Positions 52,740 to 56,939 of a stretch of DNA of 64,000 nt are shown piece after piece. The DNA is taken from the NCBI RefSeq assembly GCF_012985205.1, contig NZ_JABEKS010000001.1, forward strand, positions 372,001 through 436,000, read 5' to 3'. The notes beneath the pieces are model-generated. The model searched no databases. It was given only the letters and a program-made list of their open reading frames with translations, and was not told where the DNA came from. The DNA comes from Planctomonas sp. JC2975 (GTDB lineage: Bacteria; Actinomycetota; Actinomycetes; Actinomycetales; Microbacteriaceae). The position numbers and the translations under genes are program-made. Every line of letters starts with the position of its first letter. Position 1 is the stretch's first letter.

Positions 52740-53792
52740 TCAGCGATAGATGCGCGGGATCCGCCTGTCCACCTTCAGCACGACCTCCTCGCCGATGGTG
52801 TCGATGAGCTCCGCCCACTCGGTGGCCGTCGGTTCGCCGACATCCCCTGGCCCGAAGACCGCGACGTCGTCACCCACGAGCACGTCTTCGTCGGCGGCGA
52901 TCGTCATCCAGTCGGTGCCGATCTGTTGAACCAGACGGCCGCGACCTTTCACGCCGACCCGCCCACGACCGGCCGCGATGCTGGGCACGCCATGCCATGC
53001 GCCGAGCGGCAGCACGGCGCAGTCGCCGCGTCGCTCGACCACATGAGTGCGCAGCGACATGACGGGGCTGATTCCGAGCTCCTCCTCGTGCGGTCCTCCG
53101 GCCGGCGAGATGCCGTAGACGAACGCGCCGACCCTGACCATGTCGTAGCGGAACTCCGCGCGAAGGAAGGACGCAGCACTGGCTGCGAGGTGGCGATATT
53201 CCGGGGCGAGCCCCGCTGCCTCGGCGCCGGCGAGGGCGAGGTCGAAGCGGCGTCGTGCTTCGTCGTCGTCATCGTCTGAGGCCTCCGAGATGTGGCTCCA
53301 CACGCCGTCGACGAGGATGCGGCCCTCATCCTGGAGCTCGGCGGCACGGGCCACGAATGCGCCCCAGTCCTCACCCCTGACGCCGTTGCGGTTGAGCCCG
53401 GTGTCGATCTTGAGGTGCACGCGGACCGGCTGCGCCGTCGCGGCCGACGCCGCAGCCTCCAGCACGGATCTGTCGCCGATCCCGAGGTCGACGCCGGCAT
53501 CCGCCGCCGCGGCGAGGTCGTCGCGGGCGCTCAGCAGCCAGGCGAAGGTGCGCACGCCGGGATCCACGATTCCGCGGATGTGCAGCGCCGTCTCGACGTC
53601 GAGCGCCCCGATCCAGCGCACGCCTTGCGCGACCGCCCGAGGGACGAGTACATCGGATCCGTGTCCGTACGCGTCGTTCTTGACGACGAACATGGTCTCC
53701 GCCGGTGCGACGCGCGAGCGGACCGCCGTGAGATTGGCATCGAACCGCGCAAGGTCGACGACGGCATACGTCTGCGGGAGGGGTTCGCTCAT
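52740..53792 (-). CDS. Alanine-racemase-like protein A: PLP barrel intact, catalytic Tyr missing
   Basis: Fold-type III PLP enzyme of 350 residues (called AlrA here). The barrel keeps the PLP lysine K38 in FVVKNDAYGHG, the carbamylatable K128 and R135 in HLKIDTGLNRNGV, S205 in AASAASF and R220 in DMVRVG. In the C-terminal domain the canonical PIGYADG, which supplies the catalytic Tyr265, reads PLGAWHG (residues 262-268), the preceding VSYG segment is deleted, and GRxCMD reads QQIGTD. It therefore cannot form a normal homodimeric active site. ATG overlaps the alrB stop (ATGA). Ends RIPRIYR, a complete C-terminus. Confidence 0.9.
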   Translation of the reverse strand: MSEPLPQTYAVVDLARFDANLTAVRSRVAPAETMFVVKNDAYGHGSDVLVPRAVAQGVRWIGALDVETALHIRGIVDPGVRTFAWLLSARDDLAAAADAGVDLGIGDRSVLEAAASAATAQPVRVHLKIDTGLNRNGVRGEDWGAFVARAAELQDEGRILVDGVWSHISEASDDDDDEARRRFDLALAGAEAAGLAPEYRHLAASAASFLRAEFRYDMVRVGAFVYGISPAGGPHEEELGISPVMSLRTHVVERRGDCAVLPLGAWHGVPSIAAGRGRVGVKGRGRLVQQIGTDWMTIAADEDVLVGDDVAVFGPGDVGEPTATEWAELIDTIGEEVVLKVDRRIPRIYR

Positions 53793-54823
53793 CGGGTGTA
53801 GCTCCGTGCCACTCGAGGGCCGATGCCGGCAGCCAACTCGACGGGGTCGAGCCCCGTGATGGCGGACCAGTCGGCGACCACTGGTTCATCCGCTCCCTGG
53901 TCGCCGAGGAATACCGCCTCGTCCCCTGCCTTCGCCGGCAGGTCCCCCAGGTCGATCACGACCACGTCCATGGCGACTCGGCCGATGACGCGTGCGCGCC
54001 CGCCGTTCAGCGCCACGGTCGCGTGATTGCCGATGCTGCGCGGAATCCCGTCGGCGTATCCGCACGTGACGAGCGCGATCGTGCCGTCCGACGGCGCGCG
54101 GTAGATGTATCCGTACGACACGCCCTCCCCTTCGGCGATGCGCTTCACCGTGACGACCTGTCCGGACAAGCGCGCGACGGAGGCACCGGTCGGCGTTCCG
54201 TCGCGCAGCGGGATGCCGTACAGTCCTCGCCCAACGCGCACGTAGTCGTCATCGGCGCCGTACCCGTCGAGGACCCCGCGTGTGCCGTGCACATGGCGTG
54301 GCACTCCGGGGACCAGTTCGGCCGCAGTCTCGAGAGCGGCGGAAGCGGCGGACGGGGATGTCGCGCCATCCGTCACACCCATCACGGCGTCCACTCGTGG
54401 TGCGACGTCCGCTATCGCCTCGAACGCGTCGCGGTCGTGCGGTGAGATCCCCCTGCTGACGTCACCGCACGCGACGACGACATGGATGCCGTCCGCTCCC
54501 CTGGCGGCCGCGGCCTCGGCTTCGGCAACCGTGCCGGCCGCGACGGAGACCCCGAGAGCATCGACGTGTCCACCGGTCGGGCGCAGCGCGAGCGTCGGCG
54601 TGTCGATCCCGGCGGCGCGGAGTCGCAACGCCTCATCGAAGTCGGCGACGGCGAGCATCGCGGCTCCTGCTGCAGCGCACTCGCGTGCAACGGGAACGAG
54701 CCCGAGACCATAGCCGTCGTGATCGATCCGCGCGATGAGCGCGCGAGAGGACGACCGGTAGCGACGCACGTTCTGCGCGAGTCTGTCGAGCCGGACAGCG
54801 AGTCGGCGGGAGTCTTCGGTCAC
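53789..54823 (-). CDS. Alanine-racemase-like protein B: catalytic Tyr intact, PLP lysine missing
   Basis: A 344-residue Alr paralogue (called AlrB here). The C-terminal domain is canonical: VKRIAEGEGVSYGYIY, CGYADG with Y256 as the catalytic tyrosine, and GRVAMD with M285/D286. The barrel has decayed as a PLP site: the K-x-N-x-YGHG motif reads DHDGYGLG (residues 34-41, Asp for Lys), HLKxDTG reads HVVVACG (114-120), and the Ser of the phosphate site is lost. R196 in YVRVG remains. GTG 54823 has AGGAG nine bases upstream. Alone it should be inactive; it probably pairs with AlrA. Confidence 0.9.
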   Translation of the reverse strand: MTEDSRRLAVRLDRLAQNVRRYRSSSRALIARIDHDGYGLGLVPVARECAAAGAAMLAVADFDEALRLRAAGIDTPTLALRPTGGHVDALGVSVAAGTVAEAEAAAARGADGIHVVVACGDVSRGISPHDRDAFEAIADVAPRVDAVMGVTDGATSPSAASAALETAAELVPGVPRHVHGTRGVLDGYGADDDYVRVGRGLYGIPLRDGTPTGASVARLSGQVVTVKRIAEGEGVSYGYIYRAPSDGTIALVTCGYADGIPRSIGNHATVALNGGRARVIGRVAMDVVVIDLGDLPAKAGDEAVFLGDQGADEPVVADWSAITGLDPVELAAGIGPRVARSYTR

Positions 54824-54912: not shown

Positions 54913-55653
54913 TCACTGGATGGTCGTGAACACCGACGATACGTGCGTGCGCATGCGTTCCGTGGAGCGCGCGGCGAATCGGTCGAACTCCGCGAGAGAG
55001 GAGTCCGGCGTGTACTCCAGCCCGGCGTGCGCGGCGGCAGCCGCGGCGAGCCGATCTGCGAGGCCGGGATTCAGCGGCAGCAACGGCCCCTGCAGAAGGG
55101 TGCCCGTAAGCGTCTCAGTGCGGATGCCGTCGGGCCGGGTCACCGAGCCCGTCACATCGCGGACGATGGTCGCGAACGGGGTCTCCACCCCAGACAACTC
55201 CGTCGCCTGGTCCTCGAATCCGATGACCTGACCGTGCACGGTGTCCGCGATCGCGTATCCGACGCGGCGCTTGCGGCCGCGGTGCGCCGTCGCCGACACG
55301 ATCCCGAGGCCGTCGAGAGTGCCGGTCGGATCTTCGATCCGTGCGCAGAGCAGTTCCAGGCCGGCGCCGACGGCGAAGAATGGCACGCGCCCAGCCCAGT
55401 CCGCGAACGTCGAGCGGTGGATCACGGCATCGGGAAGCACGCGGCGCAGAGCGGACAGCGGGCCGTTGCCGATCACGACGAGATCGGGTTCGGGTCTGAG
55501 CTGGCCACCAGGACGGTAATGGTCGATGGTGACGGGAATGCCCGAGCGGGTCAGTCGCGTGCGCAGCACGTCGACGTTTCCCGCGTCACCGGTGACGCCG
55601 AGCTCGTCGGGGTACAGCTGAAGGATCCGCACTCCGGCGGTGGCGTCCGTCAC
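54913..55653 (-). CDS. GatD-like glutamine-amidotransferase homologue lacking the catalytic Cys and His
   Basis: A 246-residue member of the GatD/CobQ-like class I amidotransferases, partner of MurT in D-Glu amidation in other Gram-positives. The scaffold is clear (YPDELGVTGDAGNVDVLRTRL, DGLGIV, GQVIGFED, GPLLPLNP), but the nucleophile elbow ICGGYQ of GatD reads VGAGLE (Gly at residue 96 for Cys), the catalytic His of YLHGP is Gln188 in LLQGP, and the GGGxDREQ region reads GNGPLSAL. The glutaminase is therefore predicted inactive. The GTG start at 55653 overlaps the murT stop by four bases. I leave the symbol blank because the activity is not expected. Confidence 0.88.
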   Translation of the reverse strand: MTDATAGVRILQLYPDELGVTGDAGNVDVLRTRLTRSGIPVTIDHYRPGGQLRPEPDLVVIGNGPLSALRRVLPDAVIHRSTFADWAGRVPFFAVGAGLELLCARIEDPTGTLDGLGIVSATAHRGRKRRVGYAIADTVHGQVIGFEDQATELSGVETPFATIVRDVTGSVTRPDGIRTETLTGTLLQGPLLPLNPGLADRLAAAAAAHAGLEYTPDSSLAEFDRFAARSTERMRTHVSSVFTTIQ

Positions 55654-56939
55654 AGGCGGGTCTCCAGGTCGGGGAATCCGAGGTGCTTGCGGGCGAGCAT
55701 CATCTGCTCGTAGTTCACGAACCACAGCTTGCGGTCGTCGCGCGGGGCGGGGAGGCGACGCATGATCTCGATCGCCTTCTCCAGATCAGGCTCGACGGCG
55801 GTGATCGGCACGCCGGCGTAGACGAGTCGCAGCGCGACCTGCCAGGCCTTCTCACCCGTGACGACGTCGACGTGGTCGAGCGAGTCGAAGTTCACGTCGT
55901 AGATCCACGAGATGTCCGGAGTTCCCTCGTCGAGGGCGAACATCACCTGCTCGGGCGGCGTGGTCAGCGAGTCGAGGTTCAGCTGGAGGCTGGGGCCGTT
56001 CTTGAACATGATGAACTCGACCGACTCGTCGCCGAACGGGATCACCTCGCCGCGACCGTAAGCCGGCCGCATGTTCGAGAACGCGTCGACCACCTTCGAC
56101 GGGTCGAAGTCGGCAGCCATCACCAGCTTCGCGGTGGCGGATGCCGCTGCGGCATCGATCGCATAGTGCAGTCCGCGCGCGGGCAGCTCGACGCTCAGTA
56201 CCTCGCCTGCCGAGCCGGATCCGCTCACGGCGATGGTCGCCTCACGCCCCGCGAACGAACGCACCTCTGACAGCGCGGACGGACGGGATGCGTTCTCTCC
56301 GTCGCGGAAGTCGGGCGCGTTCAACAGGCCGTGCTTGCTCGCGGCGAGCACCGCATCCGACACTCCGAAGTACGAGACGGCCGGCACGGATCTCGATCCG
56401 AGGCGCTCCTTCACACGGCTGAGCAGCGGGTCCTCGCGGTTCGTCACGATGTGCGCCGTAGCCAGGACGGAGGCATCCAGCATCATGTCGGCCACGCGCT
56501 CGGTCTCATAGAACCGGTAGAGCTGGTCGACCTGGCAGTTCAGCATCAGCACGGTGCGCGGGCTGAGCAGCTTCGCCAGGTCGACGGCGAAGGCCTCGTC
56601 GACCTCCAGCACTGCGACGTCGGCGGGCAGTTTGCCGGACAGCGTCACCTCCGAGAGCATCGCCGAGGCGATGCCCTGCGGGAGGTTGGCGCCACTCGGA
56701 TTCGTGAACACACGCAGGCCGTGTGCGCGCAGCAGCTCCGACACCATGTGCGTCGTGGTCGACTTGCCGTTCGAGCCGAGAACGAACACGACTCCGTGGC
56801 TCCACTGCGCTGAGACGTCCTCGATGAACCGAGGCCAGACCTTGCGCACGAGATAGCCGGGGAAGGCCGACCCTCCCCCTCTGAGCCGTGTGGCGAACCG
56901 CGCGAGGCGGCCGAGCAGGATCGCGAAGAAACGCCGCAC
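55650..56939 (-). CDS. MurT-like Mur ligase without zinc ribbon
   Basis: ATP-dependent Mur-ligase-family protein of 429 residues with the MurT C-terminal domain (DUF1727). P-loop LGSNGKSTTTHMV with Lys59, LEVDEAFAVDL, and the C-terminal TPDISWIYDVNFDSL correspond to MurT. The four-Cys zinc ribbon that canonical MurT has between the central strands is absent (no Cys in about residues 185-225), FRDQLDRYGE reads QVDQLYRFYE, and KNPAG reads KNGPS. It keeps the ATP site, so it may still ligate, possibly another substrate. GTG 56939 lies eight bases after the sigA stop. Confidence 0.88.
   Translation of the reverse strand: MRRFFAILLGRLARFATRLRGGGSAFPGYLVRKVWPRFIEDVSAQWSHGVVFVLGSNGKSTTTHMVSELLRAHGLRVFTNPSGANLPQGIASAMLSEVTLSGKLPADVAVLEVDEAFAVDLAKLLSPRTVLMLNCQVDQLYRFYETERVADMMLDASVLATAHIVTNREDPLLSRVKERLGSRSVPAVSYFGVSDAVLAASKHGLLNAPDFRDGENASRPSALSEVRSFAGREATIAVSGSGSAGEVLSVELPARGLHYAIDAAAASATAKLVMAADFDPSKVVDAFSNMRPAYGRGEVIPFGDESVEFIMFKNGPSLQLNLDSLTTPPEQVMFALDEGTPDISWIYDVNFDSLDHVDVVTGEKAWQVALRLVYAGVPITAVEPDLEKAIEIMRRLPAPRDDRKLWFVNYEQMMLARKHLGFPDLETRL

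Follow-up and report, generated by a model that had tools for sequence, protein, structure and literature searches.

The window (the whole stretch of 64,000 nucleotides from Planctomonas sp. JC2975 analysed here) contains two adjacent genes of the alanine racemase (Alr) family, alrB and alrA, and each product appears to have retained a different half of the active site. Do these genes encode one enzyme whose site is split between two chains, two proteins with separate roles, or the remains of a duplication? In Alr, the active site lies between the subunits, with Lys39 provided by one and Tyr265 by the other, and Tyr354 adjoins PLP and sets the specificity for alanine (PMC3485190, PMC4517790).

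An overlapping pair of Alr-family genes

An earlier note on this DNA had described two Alr-family genes joined by an ATGA overlap, and we recovered both reading frames and their domains (table 1). The Pfam domains of the Alr barrel and of the C-terminal domain score above the cut-off in both proteins, with 155.8 bits for Ala_racemase_N in AlrA, and 69.8 bits for Ala_racemase_N and 115.8 bits for Ala_racemase_C in AlrB. Both miss the cut-off of the NCBIfam alr equivalog (168 bits), since AlrA scores 142.1 bits and AlrB 147.5 bits. Downstream of alrA there are two genes for type II topoisomerase subunits, a gyrB-like gene followed by a gyrA-like one, and upstream of alrB there are gatD-like and murT-like genes. 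A consensus scan for promoters and terminators gave nothing above shuffled sequences.

Table 1. Position of the genes and of the main residues of the pair and its neighbours in the window. A and B stand for the homologues of AlrA and AlrB, and residue equivalents follow Geobacillus Alr.
Feature	Position	Strand	Remarks
alrB	53789..54823	minus	344 aa; proposed donor subunit, Alr C-domain intact, barrel degenerate
alrA	52740..53792	minus	350 aa; predicted to bind PLP; complete barrel, no Tyr265 hairpin, Glu at 354
ATGA overlap, alrB stop / alrA start	53789..53792	minus	read in the sequence
AlrA Lys38, PLP lysine (Lys39 equivalent)	53679..53681	minus	40/40 in A
AlrA residues 252-257, where the Tyr265 hairpin is missing	53022..53039	minus	hairpin deleted in 39/40 A; the remaining A has no Tyr there
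AlrA Glu335, specificity position (Tyr354 equivalent)	52788..52790	minus	A: Asp 22, Glu 18 (n = 40); control Alr: Tyr 47/52
AlrB Tyr237, predicted catalytic tyrosine (Tyr265 equivalent)	54113..54115	minus	40/40 in B
AlrB Met285 (Met312 equivalent)	53969..53971	minus	40/40 in B
AlrB Asp34, replacing the PLP lysine	54722..54724	minus	Lys absent in 40/40 B
gatD-like gene lacking both catalytic residues	54913..55725	minus	Gly120 (55366-55368) replaces catalytic Cys94, and Gln212 replaces catalytic His189
murT-like Mur ligase gene	55650..56939	minus	matches solved MurT structures; P-loop GSNGKSTTT kept

Each protein retains one half of the active site

We aligned both proteins to Geobacillus Alr, using a sequence identical to PDB 1l6f at 388/388 positions as the reference for the numbering. 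In AlrA, residues K38, Y42, K128, R135, H167, S205 and R220 correspond to Lys39, Tyr43, Lys129, Arg136, His166, Ser204 and Arg219, which confirms the PLP-site residues listed previously (K38, K128, R135, the phosphate-site serine and R220). The replacement of the PLP lysine by Asp34 in AlrB and the loss of its HLKxDTG motif were also as described. The tyrosine had to be reassigned. The catalytic Tyr265 sits in a V-SYG hairpin and its equivalent in AlrB is Y237 (SYG). The note had chosen Y256 (CGYADG), which aligns with Tyr284 and is thus ruled out as the catalytic base of AlrB. It had also read the PLGAWHG of AlrA as a change of the catalytic tyrosine to alanine; this change is at the Tyr284 position, and the Tyr265 hairpin itself is entirely missing, around residues 252-257. 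The proposal that the two proteins form a heterodimer survives this correction, with Y237 as the right residue. AlrB further retains M285 and R262, the equivalents of Met312 and Arg290.

These alignments suggest how a shared site could be built. AlrA would bind PLP via K38 and account for all of the barrel side of the site. The C-terminal domain of AlrB would contribute Y237 as the second catalytic base, with M285 and R262 as entry residues, thus playing the part of the opposite subunit in a normal Alr homodimer. The reciprocal site, made of the AlrB barrel and the AlrA C-domain, would be dead, and each protein alone should therefore be inactive. The predicted structure of AlrA is a plain Alr fold (pLDDT 94, pTM 0.90) and matches Alr 5fag with a Z of 43.7.

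Complementary losses are conserved across the family

We sampled 300 Microbacteriaceae genomes, Rhodoluna lacicola, Clavibacter nebraskensis and Pontimonas salivibrio (PMC6106888) included, and fetched 60 regions. This revealed the B-A pair in 29 genera. The main comparison covers 40 A and 40 B from these genera, and 52 control Alr that are mostly canonical with Tyr354, with a few carrying Asp or Glu. The residues equivalent to K39, Y43, K129, D131, G133, R136, H166, S204, R219 and G221 are each present in 40/40 A, while S264, Y265, G266, R290 and M312 are each present in 40/40 B, and R309 in 39/40. The losses mirror this pattern. Tyr265 is found in 0/40 A (39 deletions and one different loop), Met312 and Arg290 are mostly gone, and the C-domain of A has no conserved tyrosine at all. 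The PLP lysine is found in 0/40 B, most of which have wholly lost the stretch from K129 to S204. Hence, the PLP lysine and the catalytic tyrosine never occur in one chain of the pair, whereas control Alr have K39 in 51/52 and Y265 in 51/52. Eight further A/B sets, fetched later, present the same pattern (8/8). The complementary losses are more than chance, since they recur in 40/40 and 8/8 gene sets. Both genes are under purifying selection: A has a pN/pS of 0.28-0.34 and B one of 0.34-0.42.

A different explanation of these data is that AlrA alone carries out another PLP reaction for which the lysine is enough, for instance a decarboxylation or one-sided deprotonation, and that AlrB is structural or regulatory and keeps its tyrosine for folding. 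Fold-type III enzymes include decarboxylases, and AlrA has a full PLP site together with an altered substrate position 354. However, B has lost its own PLP site and has kept, in 39-40/40 cases, the residues that reach into the site of the partner (Tyr265, Met312, Arg290, Arg309 and the 311/313 loop). Furthermore, the nearest relatives of A, one-chain proteins with Asp or Glu at 354, retain Tyr265. We regard this explanation as improbable.

Gene order, co-occurrence and fusions

The earlier note had predicted strict co-occurrence in related genomes with the same losses, and this is what we observed: every A found has B beside it. The note had named as a refutation the occurrence, at this locus in close relatives, of homologues with all residues in one chain, and none was found there. 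Across the 29 genera, the pair adjoins gyrB in nearly all cases, always in the order B then A, and murT-gatD is also present at 25 of these loci. The overlap is exactly 4 nt in 25/36 other loci, with start codons picked by rule. All five genomes examined in the genus of the window encode the pair. The A of the window is 71-77% identical to those of the other three close genomes, and the fifth genome (G004) has a divergent Asp354 version (L076). This latter genome also encodes an extra Alr-like protein with Ser for the PLP lysine and no matched C-domain (L016 1501-2223 being its locus and position).

When 396 genomes from 20 families of the order were searched with a B profile, short B-type frames with a full-length match turned up in Microbacteriaceae only. 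The relatives of AlrA in plasmid records are all of the canonical type and less than 35% identical. One genome, G227, has two B-A pairs of different subtypes near gyrB (L107 6178-8552 and 11265-14032).

In two genomes of one genus, B and A are encoded by a single open reading frame, of 766 and 729 aa. A sequencing error is an unlikely cause, since there are two such fused frames and they are 53% identical to each other. We modelled the fusion with an alignment made of B rows and the one other fusion only, because mixed alignments placed B rows on the A half. Each match of this model to Alr covers just one of its halves, and its pTM of 0.54 does not settle how the halves pack.

These patterns bear on two other explanations. 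AlrA could borrow the tyrosine from the canonical Alr of the cell, forming hybrid dimers, with AlrB as a decaying copy; the genome does encode a canonical Alr with an intact C-domain. Yet B is found beside every A, its donor residues are invariant, it is under purifying selection, and it is fused to A in one genus, all of which makes such borrowing very improbable. That the whole pair is a decaying duplicate devoid of function, as could be supposed from the lack in each protein of residues that a homodimer needs and from the shortening of B in most genera, is barely credible: the frames are open in 29 genera, the two proteins have complementary sets of residues that never vary, and pN/pS is well below 1.

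We therefore favour the reading in which an obligate heterodimer of AlrA and AlrB acts as a PLP racemase with the Alr fold, with a probability of about 0.87 that stems from the comparative evidence; both dimerization and activity are inferred from it. The heterodimer with one composite site put forward in the earlier note is strongly supported by some 18 positions that are complementary across 29 genera, by the strict adjacency of the genes and by the two fusions.

Origin of the pair

The genome of the window encodes elsewhere a complete canonical Alr, with Tyr354 and an intact C-domain. Eight genera lacking the pair, Clavibacter among them, have instead two genes in tandem, first a canonical Alr, with Tyr or in some cases Trp at 354, and then a full-length paralogue with Asp or Glu at 354, which carries Lys39 and Tyr265 in one chain (loci L167-L176 and L180-L183, and also L068, L069 and L072). 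In the full-length trees, A groups with these one-chain Asp/Glu354 proteins, apart from canonical Alr. A single origin of all A is not established, and is not rejected either (p-AU 0.23). In the tree of the C-domain, A forms one clade (99) and B lies on the side of canonical Alr, in a single, weakly supported branch (31). The one-chain Asp/Glu354 relatives, found at another locus in other genera, look like the ancestral state. The simplest reading is that two copies, one specialized with Asp/Glu354 and one canonical, came to depend on each other, each dropping the half provided by the other.

Substrate and cell wall

What would such an enzyme racemize? Charged residues at position 354 are reported to lower the activity on alanine, and lysine, broad-specificity and serine racemases are also altered at this position (PMC3485190, PMC4517790). 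A carboxylate at 354, as in all A of the main set (table 1), would fit a basic side chain and not alanine. Since a separate canonical Alr is also present, a basic amino acid is the most likely substrate (D-ornithine, D-2,4-diaminobutyrate or D-lysine, destined for the group B wall), with chances that we place slightly above even. The known walls of the family are varied. Microbacterium species have D-Orn, L-Lys or Dab, mixed even inside one cluster (PMC10757982). The wall of Clavibacter contains Dab (PMC5358740), and this genus carries the one-chain gene with Asp354. The wall of Rhodoluna lacicola contains D-Dab (PMC4156110), and we found neither the pair nor an Asp/Glu354 gene in its genome, which rules out that the pair is required for every wall with a D-diamino acid. 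Position 354 varies within one large genus: in g85 (L212-L221) most pairs have Glu, and G556 has Asp and an inverted gene order. The choice between Asp and Glu in this genus might track the diamino acid of the wall.

The genes upstream of the pair are also unusual. The catalytic Cys of GatD is absent in 47/47 Microbacteriaceae members examined, whether the pair is present or not (loci L077-L135 and L222-L251), and kept in 27/27 members of nine other families of the order. A loss tied specifically to the pair is thus ruled out. Because no GatD examined in Microbacteriaceae has this residue, the transfer of ammonia from glutamine by these proteins seems unlikely. The MurT of the window, the sole one found in the genome, has a single cysteine in addition to its intact P-loop. 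On the plasmid NZ_CP043642.1 of Leifsonia shinshuensis there is a second MurT gene (33% identical) with a glutamine amidotransferase gene, adjoining a gene for an M15 peptidase (VanY-like; L136 6001-8950).

In group B peptidoglycan, the alpha-carboxyl of D-Glu is the bridge position. A MurT partnered by a GatD lacking this Cys is consistent with an enzyme that has ceased to supply this carboxyl with ammonia from glutamine, and makes MurT-GatD a candidate for re-purposing in group B walls, where we propose that MurT attaches the bridge amino acid. The four genes murT-gatD-alrB-alrA could then constitute a dedicated bridge pathway: AlrAB would make the D-diamino acid, selected by the Asp or Glu at 354, and MurT with the Cys-less GatD would ligate it, in place of ammonia, to the alpha-carboxyl of D-Glu. 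This scheme is tentative, and we judge it somewhat less probable than its negation.

Comparison with known systems

We found no paper on a heterodimeric racemase in the open-licence literature, which is weak evidence of novelty, and the literature searched gave no description of biosynthetic enzymes for the D-diamino acids of group B or for the ligation of the bridge. As far as these searches reach, a racemase with a single active site split over two degenerate paralogues is undescribed. The genes studied here are candidates for both of these wall functions. Moreover, one family presents side by side the plausible stages of the process (a tandem of canonical and specialized one-chain genes, the split pair with its mutual losses, the progressive truncation of the donor and re-fusion), so that the way in which an obligate heteromer evolves can be put to a direct test.

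The closest known system is Alr itself, a homodimer (Geobacillus 1l6f/1bd0; Streptomyces 1vfh, 5fac), with which AlrA and AlrB share the fold, the domains and, residue for residue, the two-base Lys39/Tyr265' site at the interface. They differ in that the site is split over two non-identical and mutually degenerate chains: A lacks the tyrosine hairpin and has Asp or Glu for Tyr354, and B has no PLP lysine and in many cases has also lost much of its barrel. Bar, Lyr and the VanT serine racemase are also of the Alr fold, with an altered 354 tied to their substrate range, but each of them is encoded by one gene, has both bases in every chain and carries Thr, Ala or Asn where AlrA has an acidic residue. 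The neighbours of the pair are relatives of the MurT/GatD lipid II amidotransferase and have kept the MurT P-loop, whereas this enzyme has the Cys94 and His189 that the GatD of the window lacks. Finally, trypanosome prozymes, like some other inactive paralogues, complete an enzyme or activate it. As proposed for AlrB, they are degenerate copies needed by a catalytic partner; prozymes act mainly by allostery, whereas AlrB is proposed to give a catalytic base to a shared site.
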